Origin: Kiritimatiellales bacterium
Lineage (GTDB): Bacteria; Verrucomicrobiota; Kiritimatiellia; Kiritimatiellales; Pontiellaceae
Length of the DNA: 34,012 nucleotides
Assembly: GCA_003252225.1 (NCBI GenBank)
Contig: QKFE01000170.1
Span: 1-34,012, forward strand
Direction: 5' to 3'
The position numbers were made by a program, and so were the translations under genes. The notes under the pieces are model-generated. The model was not told the origin of the DNA. It saw only the letters and a list, made by a program, of their open reading frames with translations, and searched no databases. Of the stretch, positions 3,435 to 16,487 are shown piece after piece; position 1 is the first letter of the stretch, and every line of letters starts with the position of its first letter.

Positions 3435-3524
3435 GAACCACTGATGAACACAGATCGGCTCGGGTGCTGAAGATCATTTCATTTTGATTGAGTATCCGTG
3501 CGCGTCTGGGTTTATCTGTGGTTC
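3435..3524. repeat. ~90-bp imperfect palindromic intergenic element
   Basis: Left GAACCACTGATGAACACAGA versus reverse complement of right end GAACCACAGATAAACCCAGA (17/20). Confidence 0.7.
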
Positions 3525-3571: not shown

Positions 3572-4906
3572 ATGCGTAAGATTGCAGATTGGGGAAACTA
3601 TCCGGTCATCGAGGCCGAAGTCACCGGATTTGATTCCGCGGAACAGTTGCGCACACAACTCGAACAGCCGGGAGAAGTCATCGCCTTTGGAAACGGTCGT
3701 TCGTACGGCGATGCTTCTCTCCAAAAAAACATCCTGCTCACCCGCCGTTTCAATAAATTTCTTTCATTCGATGAAAACACCGGAACGCTGTGCTGCCAGT
3801 CCGGCGTGCTGCTTTCCGAAATACTCGATGCGTTTGTTCCGCGCGGCTGGTTCCTGCCAGTGACGCCGGGAACCAAGCTGATCACCGTAGGCGGCGCGAT
3901 TGCCGCCGATGTGCACGGTAAAAACCATCACGTTGCCGGCAGTTTCGGCCAGCATGTTCTTTCGATGGAAGTGATGCGCAACGACGGTTCGGTGATCCGC
4001 TGTTCGCCGCAGGAAAAGGCGGAATTTTTCAGATTGACCATCGGCGGCATGGGGCTTTCCGGGGTTATTCTGAACGCGACGTTCCGGCTGAAACGGATCA
4101 ACACCGCCTATATCCGGGAAGAGACCGTCCGCGCCGAGAACCTCGATGAAATTATGGACGGATTTGAGCTCTCCGATAACTGGACCTATTCCGTTGCATG
4201 GATTGATTGCCTTGCGAAAGGCGATGCGATGGGGCGCAGTATTCTGATGCGCGGCGAACACTGCACAAAAGGCGAACTGATTAAGCCGGATCGGCTCGAA
4301 TTGCCCCTGATTCTGAAACAGAGACTGCAATTGGATATCCCGGTCATGTTCCCCAACGTTGCACTGAACCCGCTTTCAATGAAGGCGTTCAATTTCCTCT
4401 ACTACAATAAAACCCGCCCCGGAACCCATTCGCGTATTATCGATTACAACAGCTTCTTTTATCCGCTCGATGCCATCAGCAATTGGAACCGGATTTACGG
4501 AAAACGCGGCTTCACGCAGTATCAGTTTGTTATCCCGAAATCGGCCGGACGCGAAGGAATGCGAACCATTCTGAAACGGATCACCGAAAGCGGACTGGGT
4601 TCCTTCCTCGCCGTACTCAAACTGTTCGGCGAACAGAACAGTTTTATGTCGTTCCCGATGAAAGGATATACTCTCGCGCTCGATTTCCCGATTTCGCACC
4701 GGGCCATGCAACTGTTCACCGAACTCGATGCGATGGTGGCCGATTACGGCGGACGGCTTTATCTCGCCAAAGACTCGCGGATGAATGCGGCGATGTTTGA
4801 AAAAACCTACCCCAATGCCGACGAATTCCGGCAGGCGATCTCGCTGTTAAATGAAGGCGAAACGCAGTTCGCTTCCCTTCAGTCCAAGCGCATCGGAATC
4901 ACTTAA
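3572..4906 (+). CDS. FAD-binding oxidoreductase, DprE1-like (decaprenylphosphoryl-ribose 2-oxidase family)
   Basis: FAD_binding_4-type motif FGNGRSYGDASLQKNILLTRRFNKFLSFD...GWFLPVTPGTKLITVGGAIAADVHGKNHHVAGSFGQHV; downstream SDR is DprE2-like. Confidence 0.85.
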   Translation: MRKIADWGNYPVIEAEVTGFDSAEQLRTQLEQPGEVIAFGNGRSYGDASLQKNILLTRRFNKFLSFDENTGTLCCQSGVLLSEILDAFVPRGWFLPVTPGTKLITVGGAIAADVHGKNHHVAGSFGQHVLSMEVMRNDGSVIRCSPQEKAEFFRLTIGGMGLSGVILNATFRLKRINTAYIREETVRAENLDEIMDGFELSDNWTYSVAWIDCLAKGDAMGRSILMRGEHCTKGELIKPDRLELPLILKQRLQLDIPVMFPNVALNPLSMKAFNFLYYNKTRPGTHSRIIDYNSFFYPLDAISNWNRIYGKRGFTQYQFVIPKSAGREGMRTILKRITESGLGSFLAVLKLFGEQNSFMSFPMKGYTLALDFPISHRAMQLFTELDAMVADYGGRLYLAKDSRMNAAMFEKTYPNADEFRQAISLLNEGETQFASLQSKRIGIT

Positions 4907-4911
4907 TTTTG

Positions 4912-5359
4912 AACCACTAAATACACGAAATACACGAAAGGAGGAATAGGAGTGGCGGGGCTGCTGTATAAAGAGGAGTGCTATGCAATAAACGGAGCAT
5001 GTTTTGAGGTTTATAAGGAAAAAGGGTGCGGATTTCTCGAAGATGTTTATCAGGAGTGTTTGGAAATAGAATTGGAATTACAGGGGATAGAGTTTGTTGC
5101 TCAGCATCCTTTGAGACTGAATTACAAGGGGCGGCCTTTGCGAAAAAAATACATCCCCGACTTCATTTGCACTGGAAAAATTATCGTTGAGATTAAAGCT
5201 GTAAAAGAGATCGGAGATGAACATCGAGCGCAAGTGCAGAATTATCTTAAAGCAACAGGATATAAGCTTGGTCTGATTGTGAATTTTGGTCATTACCCAA
5301 AGGTTCAGATCGAAAGAATAGCAAACTGACCTTTCGTGTATTTAGTGTATTTCGTGGTT
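4912..5359. mobile_element. putative element: GxxExxY ORF between ~30-bp terminal inverted repeats
   Basis: Left 4912-4941 AACCACTAAATACACGAAATACACGAAAGG; reverse complement of 5330-5359 AACCACGAAATACACTAAATACACGAAAGG (28/30). The ORF ends at 5329, immediately before the right arm. Confidence 0.65.
4952..5329 (+). CDS. GxxExxY family protein (PDDEXK_3 nuclease-like)
   Basis: Contains GFLEDVY (GxxExxY) and PDFICTGKIIVEIKA (PD...ExK) motifs; GTG start with AGGAGG upstream. Confidence 0.88.
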   Translation: MAGLLYKEECYAINGACFEVYKEKGCGFLEDVYQECLEIELELQGIEFVAQHPLRLNYKGRPLRKKYIPDFICTGKIIVEIKAVKEIGDEHRAQVQNYLKATGYKLGLIVNFGHYPKVQIERIAN

Positions 5360-5369
5360 AGGTAATAAA

Positions 5370-6101
5370 ATGAAAAGTGTTTTAATATTAGGCGCAACAT
5401 CGGATATCGCGCAGGCGGTTGCAAAGAAGTATGCGGCGGAAGGATGGAGCCTGACGCTCGCGGCGCGGGATACGGTCGCATTGGAACCGATTGCCGCCGA
5501 CCTGAAAATCCGCGCCGATGCTGAAGTTAAAGCCGTGCAGTTTGATGCGACCGACTTTGAAAACCACGCCGCGTTTTATGAATCGCTTTCGCCGAAACCG
5601 GATGCGGTGATTTGTGTATTCGGCTATATGGGCGATCAGGAATCGGTTCGGTCGGATTTCGGTGAAGTGAAAAAAACGATCGATGTGAACTATACCGGCG
5701 CGGTTTCCATTCTGAACATCGTCGCAAATGATTTTGAACAACGGGAAAGCGGCGCGATTGCGGGCATTAGCTCTGTCGCCGGGGATCGCGGTCGGCAAAG
5801 CAACTATATTTACGGTTCCGCGAAGGCCGGCTTCACCGCCTATTTATCCGGGCTGCGAAACCGGCTGGCAAAAAAAGGCGTCCATGTGATGACCGTGAAG
5901 CCGGGATTCTGTCGCACAAAAATGACAGAGAAACTGGAACTGCCCGCCGCCTTAACCGCCGAACCCGAGCAGGTCGCCGCCGCCGTATTCAGCGGAATGA
6001 AAAAGCAGCGCAATGTGGTTTACACCCTCTGGATGTGGCGCTACATCATGCTCATCATCCGCCATATCCCCGAATTCATTTTCAAAAAGATGGATATGTA
6101 A
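5370..6101 (+). CDS. short-chain dehydrogenase/reductase, DprE2-like
   Basis: ILGATSDIAQAVAKKYAAEGWSLTLAAR Rossmann start, catalytic-like S..YIYGSAKAG; paired with DprE1-like gene. Confidence 0.85.
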   Translation: MKSVLILGATSDIAQAVAKKYAAEGWSLTLAARDTVALEPIAADLKIRADAEVKAVQFDATDFENHAAFYESLSPKPDAVICVFGYMGDQESVRSDFGEVKKTIDVNYTGAVSILNIVANDFEQRESGAIAGISSVAGDRGRQSNYIYGSAKAGFTAYLSGLRNRLAKKGVHVMTVKPGFCRTKMTEKLELPAALTAEPEQVAAAVFSGMKKQRNVVYTLWMWRYIMLIIRHIPEFIFKKMDM

Positions 6102-14369: not shown

Positions 14370-15662
14370 ATGCAAACAAAAAAAATAGAGACCTATTTCA
14401 TTAATGTGCTCGGCTGCAAAGTCAACCAATACGACGGGCAACAGATTGCCCAGCTGTTTGAAAATTACGGCCTCAAACAGACAGGAATACCGGACGACGC
14501 CGACCTCATCGTAATCCACACCTGCGGCGTCACCGCCGCCGCCGCCCAGAAATCGCGGCAGACCATCCGTAAAATGCAGCGGGCAAACCCCCTCGCCCAC
14601 ATCATCGTCACCGGTTGCGCCGCCGCCGATGAACTGACCCGGATCGATCAGGCCCCCGTATTCCGCGTTCCCGCCGGGGCCGACTGGCTTCAGCGGCTGG
14701 CGGAACAGCTCAATTCACTGGCCCTGCCGAATTCCGAAGCCGGACACGGCATTGAAACCGACACCTTCACCCTCTCAAAATTCGGCGACCAAACCCGCGC
14801 TTTTTTAAAGGTGCAGGACGGCTGCGATATCGGCTGTTCCTACTGCATCATCCCGCAGTTGCGCAAAGCCCCGCGCGATAAATCCATCGAAGCCGCCGTT
14901 AAAGAAGCCGCCGCCCTCACCGAAGCCGGCTACCGCGAAATCGTCGTAACCGGCGTCAGCGTCGGACTCTACGGCCGCGAAACCGGCTCATCCCTCGCCG
15001 AAATACTCCGTCACATTGCCGCCGTTCCGAATATCGGTCGAATCCGCCTTTCCAGTCTGCACCCCGGCGAACTCACCGATGAACTGCTCGAAGTCTGGAC
15101 CTCAAACGCAAACATAATGCCGCACCTCCACCTTTCCCTGCAATCCGGCTCCGACGCCGTTTTGGCCGCCATGCGCCGCGGCTATTCCGCCCGAGAATAT
15201 TACACCGCCGTCGAACGCGCCCGCGCCGCCCTCGATAATCCCGCGTTCACCACCGACGTCATCGTCGGATTCCCCGGCGAAACCGACGCCTATTTTGAGG
15301 AATCCTACGCCTTCTGCAAAAAGGTCGGTTTCTCCCAAATGCACGTCTTCACCTATTCGCCGCGCCCCAAAACCATTGCCGCCAAAATGAGTAATCAGGT
15401 CAACGGCGCCGTCGCCGCCGAACGCAGCGAAAAACTGCGCGCACTCGGCGAACTGATGTCCCTCGAATATCACCGCCAATTTCTCGGCCGCGAAATCGAA
15501 GTGCTGGTTGAACGGATAAAAGACGGAACCGCCACCGGCTATTCCCGCCGCTACATCCCCGTCGAATTTCAAACCGCCGAATTCAAAACCCCCGATGATT
15601 TACAGGGTCAAATTGTTTCCATCCAACCCACCGAAGCCACCGCCACTAGTTTGAAACGGTAG
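14370..15662 (+). CDS. mtaB: tRNA (N6-threonylcarbamoyladenosine-C2)-methylthiotransferase MtaB
   Basis: VLGCKVNQYDGQQIAQLF N-terminal UPF0004 motif; radical SAM GCDIGCSYCIIPQLRKAPRDKS; IGRIRLSSLHPGELTDELLEV. Confidence 0.9.
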   Translation: MQTKKIETYFINVLGCKVNQYDGQQIAQLFENYGLKQTGIPDDADLIVIHTCGVTAAAAQKSRQTIRKMQRANPLAHIIVTGCAAADELTRIDQAPVFRVPAGADWLQRLAEQLNSLALPNSEAGHGIETDTFTLSKFGDQTRAFLKVQDGCDIGCSYCIIPQLRKAPRDKSIEAAVKEAAALTEAGYREIVVTGVSVGLYGRETGSSLAEILRHIAAVPNIGRIRLSSLHPGELTDELLEVWTSNANIMPHLHLSLQSGSDAVLAAMRRGYSAREYYTAVERARAALDNPAFTTDVIVGFPGETDAYFEESYAFCKKVGFSQMHVFTYSPRPKTIAAKMSNQVNGAVAAERSEKLRALGELMSLEYHRQFLGREIEVLVERIKDGTATGYSRRYIPVEFQTAEFKTPDDLQGQIVSIQPTEATATSLKR

Positions 15663-15685
15663 GGCGCTTTCGATGAAAGCGCCGC
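15658..15685. repeat. REP hairpin, type A (extra unit overlapping mtaB stop)
   Basis: GGTAGGGCGCTTTCGATGAAAGCGCCGC; stem GGCGCTTTC/GAAAGCGCC. Confidence 0.9.
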
Positions 15686-15697
15686 CGGGCAAGCACA

Positions 15698-15847
15698 GGT
15701 AGGGCGCTTTCGATGAAAGCGCCGCTGTTCAACGTATCAGGTAGGGCGCTTTCGACGAAAGCGCCGCAAATCGGATCAAAGGCAATTCGGCGGTTTCATC
15801 GAAACCGCCCTACCCCGCGTCAGTGGTTTCACCGAAACCGCCCTACC
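15698..15847. repeat. left 150-bp REP composite (A-A-B'-B')
   Basis: Two GGTAGGGCGCTTTCGAYGAAAGCGCCGC units (15698, 15740) and two inverted GCGGTTTC..GAAACCGCCCTACC units (about 15790-15814, 15823-15847); ~95% identical to 16338-16487. Confidence 0.93.
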
Positions 15848-15851
15848 CGAT

Positions 15852-16295
15852 CTATTGCCTGTTTTCCCAAACAAATTTCCATTTCCCCGAATCATCTGCC
15901 AAACCTGCGCGGACGGGATTCATCCGAATATAATAGGCTTTCTCTACATAGCTTTCTCCGGGACGCAGACGGTGATCAAAAAAATCGCGCTGCCAAACAA
16001 CAGAGCTGTTTGTTGAAACATAACGTTTCCATTGGGAAATACACCTTTTCATCCCGATCATCGGAGAAAAAGACATAATTGCGTGCAGATGATCGGGCAT
16101 CAGTAATAAGAGATGAACCCACAAATCCCCCCTATTCTGCCGGAACTGAAGTGATTCTTTAATAAGAACAAAAACCTCTTCGCAGCAAAGATGATTCACC
16201 CCCCGCGGCTCACAACCTATCGTAACAAAATATTCAGCCCCATCTTCAACCCATGATGGTATTTCATGAGGCAGTTTTTTACGTTCCGGCAACAT
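15852..16295 (-). CDS. REP-associated tyrosine transposase (RAYT; IS200-like TnpA_REP)
   Basis: HLLLLMPDHLHAIMSF HUH-type motif (HLH), W..YIRMNPVRAGL C-terminal RAYT motif; flanked on both sides by REP hairpins. Confidence 0.92.
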   Translation of the reverse strand: MLPERKKLPHEIPSWVEDGAEYFVTIGCEPRGVNHLCCEEVFVLIKESLQFRQNRGDLWVHLLLLMPDHLHAIMSFSPMIGMKRCISQWKRYVSTNSSVVWQRDFFDHRLRPGESYVEKAYYIRMNPVRAGLADDSGKWKFVWENRQ

Positions 16296-16337
16296 ATGCT
16301 TAAAATTTCCCGTATTGGTTCCGTAAACAAGCTTAAA

Positions 16338-16487
16338 GGTAGGGCGCTTTCGACGAAAGCGCCGCTGTTCAACGTATCAGGTAGGGCGCTTTCGACGAAA
16401 GCGCCGTAAATCGGATTAAAGATAATGCGGCGGTTTCATCGAAACCGCCCTACCCCGCGTCAGCGGTTTCATCGAAACCGCCCTACC
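16338..16487. repeat. right 150-bp REP composite (A-A-B'-B')
   Basis: Direct repeat of 15698-15847 with about 8 substitutions and no indels, offset exactly 640 bp. Confidence 0.93.

Follow-up and report, generated by a model that had tools for sequence, protein, structure and literature searches.

The 448-bp unit at positions 4912-5359 of the window (the whole 34,012-nt stretch of DNA that was analysed, contig C150 of a 3.0-Mb assembly that is 86% complete) consists of a left arm, a Shine-Dalgarno sequence, a GxxExxY ORF and a right arm, and lies between a dprE1-like and a dprE2-like gene. The evidence tips somewhat in favour of GxxExxY acting in trans as the nuclease of a palindromic mobile element family, of which this unit is one copy. 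GxxExxY genes are boxed by arms across phyla, and these arms covary and are specific for the class of protein they enclose. Solo palindromes co-occur with the gene, and sites are found occupied, empty and in a series of stages of decay. The protein itself presents purifying selection, intact catalytic residues and a predicted nuclease fold. That it acts on the arms, and with what chemistry, we infer from this combination. A wider proposal is offered more tentatively, as one that may well hold but that we would not yet call probable: GxxExxY proteins would be the dedicated enzymes of an unrecognised, phylum-spanning class of palindromic DNA, multiplying three-repeat hairpins, with clades that co-evolve with their arms, and the same boxed plan would have arisen also for S23/IVP and RAYT-like proteins, with a separate arm class for each.

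The unit between the dprE1-like and dprE2-like genes

The left arm (AACCACTAAATACACGAAATACACGAAAGG, positions 4912-4941, forward strand) is built of three ~9-nt repeats and pairs with the right arm (reverse complement AACCACGAAATACACTAAATACACGAAAGG, positions 5330-5359, reverse strand). The arms are 30 nt each, 93% (28/30) complementary and 388 nt apart, and end in AACCAC/GTGGTT. An arm score was defined as a standard local alignment of the left flank with the reverse complement of the right flank, with a threshold of at least 14. The pair scores 26-27, as compared with medians of 8-10 for shuffled flanks of GxxExxY genes, and ranks first among the inverted repeats of the window. The terminal repeats described in the earlier note are thus borne out, as is its close packing of the ORF: the Shine-Dalgarno GGAGG (4940-4944, forward strand) overlaps the inner end of the left arm, and the stop codon (5327-5329) of the 125-aa ORF (4952-5329, forward strand, GTG start) directly adjoins the right arm. 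The host gene upstream of the insertion (3572-4906, forward strand) encodes a dprE1-like FAD oxidoreductase, for which DprE1 is the best NCBIfam match with 428 bits, below the cut-off of 500. The host gene downstream (5370-6101, forward strand) encodes a dprE2-like SDR, which matches PRK07102 above its cut-off and DprE2 with 226 bits against a cut-off of 250. No target-site duplication is visible at this site (TTTTG / AGGTA), where relatives are too diverged for the exact ends to be read.

The ORF was assigned by profile matches, conservation and predicted fold to the PD-(D/E)XK nuclease-fold family GxxExxY. PF13366 (PDDEXK_3) is its sole Pfam match (E-value 2e-42; 145 bits against a cut-off of 22), TIGR04256 is matched with 142 bits against a cut-off of 35, over the full model, and the motif residues G27, E30 and Y33 are present. 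An alignment of 65 sequences, which left out copies with internal stops, contains eight invariant residues, including D70, K82 and Q94, with E80 and Y33 conserved in at least 90%. The D-ExK-Q site is intact in the window protein. No cysteine is invariant in this alignment, such that conserved Fe-S cysteines were not found. Close pairs present dN/dS values of 0.03-0.12 and, judged from these ratios, the protein is under strong purifying selection. The AlphaFold2 model (pLDDT 95) was matched by Foldseek to Cas4 SSO0001 (probability 1.0) and to the Holliday junction resolvase ST1444 (probability 0.99), with RecE/LHK exonucleases also among the best matches, while a sequence search revealed no solved homologue in the PDB at a meaningful E-value. 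From what is established on the matched folds, DNA that is branched or end-processed would be a plausible substrate. Our literature search found no biochemistry for GxxExxY/PF13366, and there are no Cas genes in the examined neighbourhood of the ORF.

The genes dprE1 and dprE2 are adjacent in 21 genomes of the genus. The pair had been described as normally adjacent and split by the unit, and a comparison of the junction in relatives confirms this, with empty sites in many of them: the dprE1 stop overlaps the dprE2 start (ATGA) in L121, L129, L132, L133, L136 and L137. GxxExxY is found at the junction in G000, G007 (with one stop), G009 (decayed) and G010 (cut by the contig end). In G013, the arms are kept without the ORF, and G008 contains an apparent relic of the left arm. 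In a DprE1-DprE2 tree, the filled L131 is sister to the empty L133 (support 92/91), and, by its starred branches, the tree requires a minimum of two changes for the filled state and two for the empty one. The nearest relatives of the window GxxExxY protein are found both at dprE1-dprE2 and at other sites.

Arms and palindromes beyond the window

The genome contains seven GxxExxY genes, six of them complete, and inverted arms enclose every one of these six. The arm pairs differ in sequence but share one design of three ~9-nt (8-10) repeats, e.g. CACGAAATA, CGCAAAGA and CACGGATGA. Across loci, the arms form one superfamily with three ~9-nt repeats such as NACACGGAA, the sequences varying widely. 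When GxxExxY homologues were checked for flanking arms, these proved general. Within the genus, 30 of the 32 loci with both flanks readable score at least 14 (shuffled, 1%). This count is based on flanks taken from the domain boundaries; boundaries at ORF starts, with their long upstream start codons, missed arms and yielded 18/33 at the same threshold. In other genomes, the threshold is reached at 72 of 77 loci with both flanks readable (shuffled, 6%). This set is drawn mostly from Verrucomicrobiota, Kiritimatiellota and Planctomycetota, with additional loci from Armatimonadota, Acidobacteriota, Bacteroidota and Proteobacteria. In the same flank test, SDR genes used as a control presented arms at 0/22. 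The median score of the 77-locus set is 25, as compared with 10 for shuffled flanks and 15 for left and right arms taken from different loci. As pairs from the same locus thus score higher than pairs from different loci, left and right arms covary. Arm similarity also tracks protein similarity (Mantel rho 0.39 for all loci and 0.28 without the ABC loci described below, p 0.002; within the genus, rho 0.16, p 0.04). This correlation would fit co-evolution of protein and arm, with host relatedness contributing.

In Opitutales-type genomes, 19 of 80 loci share a single junction between an ABC ATPase and its permease (L044, L049, L054, L055, L057-L060, L074, L082, L094, L098, L101, L104-L108 and L114). 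Here, the arms have switched between GxxExxY clades, from CACGAA to CACGGA in all units, and still match each other. This copy is apparently stably resident and possibly recruited and, as it was kept at one junction over long divergence, some copies behave like resident genes. The earlier note had regarded the unit as transposon-like or homing-like rather than as a resident gene. The first part is well supported, both as a statement on anatomy and in terms of comparative genomics, since homologues generally carry arms and the dprE1-dprE2 junction is empty in many relatives; the denial of residence does not extend to the Opitutales-type copies.

Of 100 loci in which neighbours were called as the longest ORFs, 60 have GxxExxY in the same direction as both neighbours and 8 have it opposite to both, and this mostly co-directional arrangement suggests expression by read-through. 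Carriage by phages or plasmids was rejected as an explanation, as phage records contain no GxxExxY and plasmids contain it in only 6 of 72,556 cases. The six distant plasmid copies present clear arms in two cases (Bacteroides and Bernardetia), weak arms in one (Treponema) and none by the flank test in three. In the plasmid of Fusobacteria bacterium ZRK30 (L332), the gene has 21-nt repeats on its flanks (AGATTTAATCCGTGTACCTAT) that are direct and not inverted.

The arms of the 448-bp unit are not exclusive to the ORF. The same palindromes occur in the genome as solo intergenic hairpins, and the arms belong to a larger family of palindromes that is mostly found without the ORF. A degenerate arm pattern matches 79 times in the genome, as compared with 18 for a reversed-pattern control, and the matches are mostly facing pairs with short loops. 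One of these lies in the window at 946-1021 (AACCACGGAATACACTGAATACACGGAA and a facing copy, 20-nt loop), where it was identified by both pattern match and inverted-repeat search. A degenerate solo palindrome (GAACCACTGATGAACACAGAT ... ATCTGTGGTTC) lies upstream of dprE1 at 3435-3524 and has a DNA fold z of -5.3; solo palindromes fold as stable DNA hairpins, with z of -5 to -8. According to our reading of the pattern-match list, about six solo pairs have GAA-type arms like those of the window element, and at least three further pairs have CACAAA-type arms like those of the GxxExxY copy on contig C143. For the commonest solo subfamily (CACGGA type), the assembled ~86% of the genome contains no GxxExxY copy that matches. 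The loops of the solo hairpins are short and unrelated, and the hairpins are not obvious deletion products of the ORF-bearing form. The window also contains a second palindrome system at 15658-16487, namely GTAG-like REP clusters (GGTAGGGCGCTTTCGATGAAAGCGCCG and facing copies) located between and around genes.

Two further kinds of gene in the genus are boxed in a similar manner. S23/IVP genes (23S_rRNA_IVP, PF05635) found outside rRNA (L148-L177) are boxed by inverted arms, e.g. TAGGCACTAGGCA or GTTTGGAGTTTGGAGT, in 25 of 29 cases, with 7-8-nt repeats such as TAGGCACTAGGCA, GTTTGGAGT and GGTTGTT; L152 and L175 are examples in the same genome as the window. Genes for ~340-aa Y1_Tnp proteins (L206-L235, e.g. 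L218 and L219) have TIRYT-like terminal inverted repeats (GGGGTCAGTCC...) that are distinct from the GxxExxY arms. When arms were assigned to a protein class by nearest neighbour, using arm lists compiled by hand, 50 of 52 were matched to the correct class, which would not be expected of a cargo gene carried by a generic palindrome. In G000:C321, ~0.7 kb separates an IVP gene from a GxxExxY gene (3941-4261 and 4970-5317, respectively), and such proximity is also seen in several other genomes of the genus, e.g. G009:C204 and G023:C433. Four small genomes of the genus (G011, G015, G019 and G022; 1.1-1.3 Mb) contain no GxxExxY, IVP or Y1 genes.

A putative enzyme for the palindromes and the competing readings

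Co-occurrence of arms and gene was analyzed in 115 genomes drawn from the phylum, with genome counts transferred by hand to the contingency tables. The exact arm pattern CCACNRANNNCACNRANNNCACNRA is found in 39 of the 115, whereas a reversed control matched four genomes, once each. GxxExxY is found in 52 of the 115 at an E-value threshold of 0.001; the tables considered 51, as the match in G112 is below the family cut-off. All 32 genomes with at least two arms carry GxxExxY, and none of the 64 genomes without it has two or more (Fisher p 2e-15 per genome; for at least one arm, 8e-10 per genus and 3e-5 per family). In 17 genomes, there are more arms than two per GxxExxY gene, and the association is thus not merely due to the gene's own flanks. 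In 13 genomes, GxxExxY is present with no arms of the searched pattern, which covers only some arm types. It should be noted that the co-occurrence could partly reflect shared ancestry or lifestyle.

In the mechanism that we propose, GxxExxY would be a PD-(D/E)XK nuclease of the same type as Cas4/RecB/Hjc, but small and stand-alone, and its target would most likely be its own arms, probably in the form of extruded hairpins or cruciforms. By nicking or cutting these arms, it would drive their copying into other intergenic sites, and a solo palindrome might possibly also be replaced by the ORF-bearing form. The ORF-bearing copy would be the autonomous form and solo hairpins of the same arm type its non-autonomous relatives. 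The element brings a ribosome-binding site but, being usually co-directional with its neighbours, would probably be expressed by read-through. The role of GxxExxY for its palindrome class would then be that proposed for RAYT (TnpA-REP) with REPs.

The palindromes might, however, be mobilised by another enzyme, such as a RAYT/Y1 transposase, with GxxExxY as cargo. We consider this unlikely, although it is the alternative that deserves most attention, as Y1_Tnp genes are present in 38 of the 39 genomes with arms and as a precedent is known: in RAYT systems, a nuclease/transposase gene is flanked by palindromes that are also scattered as short intergenic hairpins in gene-carrying genomes (PMC3733652). 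Nonetheless, the Y1 genes of the genus have different terminal repeats of their own, and arms are specific to the encoded protein. Y1_Tnp and S23/IVP are also weaker predictors of arms than is GxxExxY. Among the 64 GxxExxY-negative genomes, Y1_Tnp is present in 34 and IVP in 32, but just one of these shows an arm match, and no more than a single one, and the coefficient for GxxExxY in a ridge logistic model (3.0) is twice that for Y1 (1.4). One genome, G088, has neither Y1 nor IVP but contains three GxxExxY matches and eight arm matches, while 13 genomes of its genus without GxxExxY have 0-1 arm matches each. The full-length element of G088 (L273) measures 594 bp from arm to arm, and two internally deleted relatives, ~92-95% identical, lie elsewhere in the genome (L270, with both arms and a 263-bp deletion, and L288). 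Such a set of copies is what an autonomous element accompanied by MITE-like derivatives would present. As flanking DNA is partly common to the copies, segmental duplication may account for individual ones. No clean empty site or recent insertion with clean flanks was found in this genus, where intergenic DNA is diverged or rearranged.

Homing through shared arms is less probable still. According to this reading, GxxExxY cuts solo palindromes, which are candidate target sites and spread by other means, and the ORF-bearing palindrome replaces them by recombination. The ORF does take the place of the loop in a palindrome that abounds as a solo form in the same genome, and solo and ORF-bearing palindromes are found at the same dprE1-dprE2 junction in different species. 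However, the solo palindromes at that junction (G004, G005, G014 and G021) belong to other arm families than do the ORF-bearing copies, and some sister genomes have no palindrome there at all (L133, as compared with the filled L131). The restriction of solo palindromes to GxxExxY genomes would also be left unexplained.

We give little credence to an element acting at the RNA level, like the intervening sequences of 23S rRNA, in which the arms would pair in a polycistronic mRNA and RNase III would excise the unit. The Coxiella IVS is strikingly alike in build (428-444 nt, with a 28-bp terminal stem and one ORF; PMC4990558), and the excess of co-directional over opposite loci noted above fits such an element. 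Selection for an RNA stem is, however, not supported: in 76 arm pairs, transition mismatches that read as G.U on the coding strand are not in excess over those that read as A.C (71 and 75, respectively; p = 0.80), and this strand symmetry indicates that pairing is kept as a DNA-level inverted repeat. Solo hairpins and non-co-directional copies, moreover, exist, and the co-occurrence of solo palindromes and gene is not explained.

It is least probable, and indeed very doubtful, that GxxExxY is a resident gene with regulatory flanking hairpins (terminators, mRNA stabilisers or attenuators) derived from a generic intergenic repeat, as, despite the long retention at the Opitutales ABC junction (19 loci) and strong purifying selection, the arms tightly box the ORF on both sides and covary across phyla, some sites are empty or decayed, one genome contains near-identical partial copies at several positions, and ordinary SDR genes have no such arms.

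Were GxxExxY the enzyme of its palindromes, as we favour, the link would give a directly testable function to a curated family with no function so far assigned. It would also provide REP-like palindromes with a second enzyme class, one that is not HUH, and explain why hairpins abound in some genomes and are absent from sisters, the palindromes that accompany GxxExxY being a large share of the intergenic repeats in many environmental bacteria. Searches by arm sequence and by GxxExxY/PF13366, in which subscription journals were sparsely covered, found no earlier description of such an element.

Comparison with known systems

The predicted fold and the D-ExK-Q active site liken GxxExxY to the Cas4/RecB-family and Hjc nucleases. 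Unlike these, it has only 125 aa, lacks conserved Fe-S cysteines and is found in no CRISPR or RecBCD context. With MITEs and insertion sequences, the unit shares terminal inverted repeats, internally deleted copies and short non-autonomous relatives, but it lacks a transposase of the DDE, HUH or serine type and a target-site duplication was not seen.

In size and build, the unit is also like the 23S rRNA intervening sequences of Leptospira and Coxiella, with ~430-450 nt, terminal inverted repeats of ~28 bp and one small ORF. Their ORF, S23/IVP, is a four-helix bundle located in 23S rRNA, whereas GxxExxY has a nuclease fold and lies between protein genes, and the free-standing S23 genes of the genus have an arm class that is different again. 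The finding that these genes are boxed nonetheless suggests that one and the same wider element design may also include the 23S rRNA intervening sequences. TIR-associated tyrosine transposases (TIRYT), a description that the ~340-aa Y1 genes of the genus fit, likewise have one ORF that is closely enclosed by terminal inverted repeats, although GxxExxY comes from another enzyme superfamily and has a non-overlapping arm class.

There is also a likeness to RAYT/REP, as the GxxExxY gene is flanked by palindromes and matching ones are found elsewhere in the genome, their dependence on the gene being seen as co-occurrence only. Still, RAYTs are HUH (Y1) enzymes, while GxxExxY has a PD-(D/E)XK nuclease fold and no HUH Y1 match. 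REPs carry a GTAG tag, while the GxxExxY arms are three ~9-nt repeats ending in CCAC/CCGC, with no GTAG/CGTC tag. Both systems are present in this genome, and their repeats differ. With neither an HUH enzyme nor a GTAG tag, the GxxExxY element is not a member of the RAYT-REP group but, by analogy, is most likely functionally like it.
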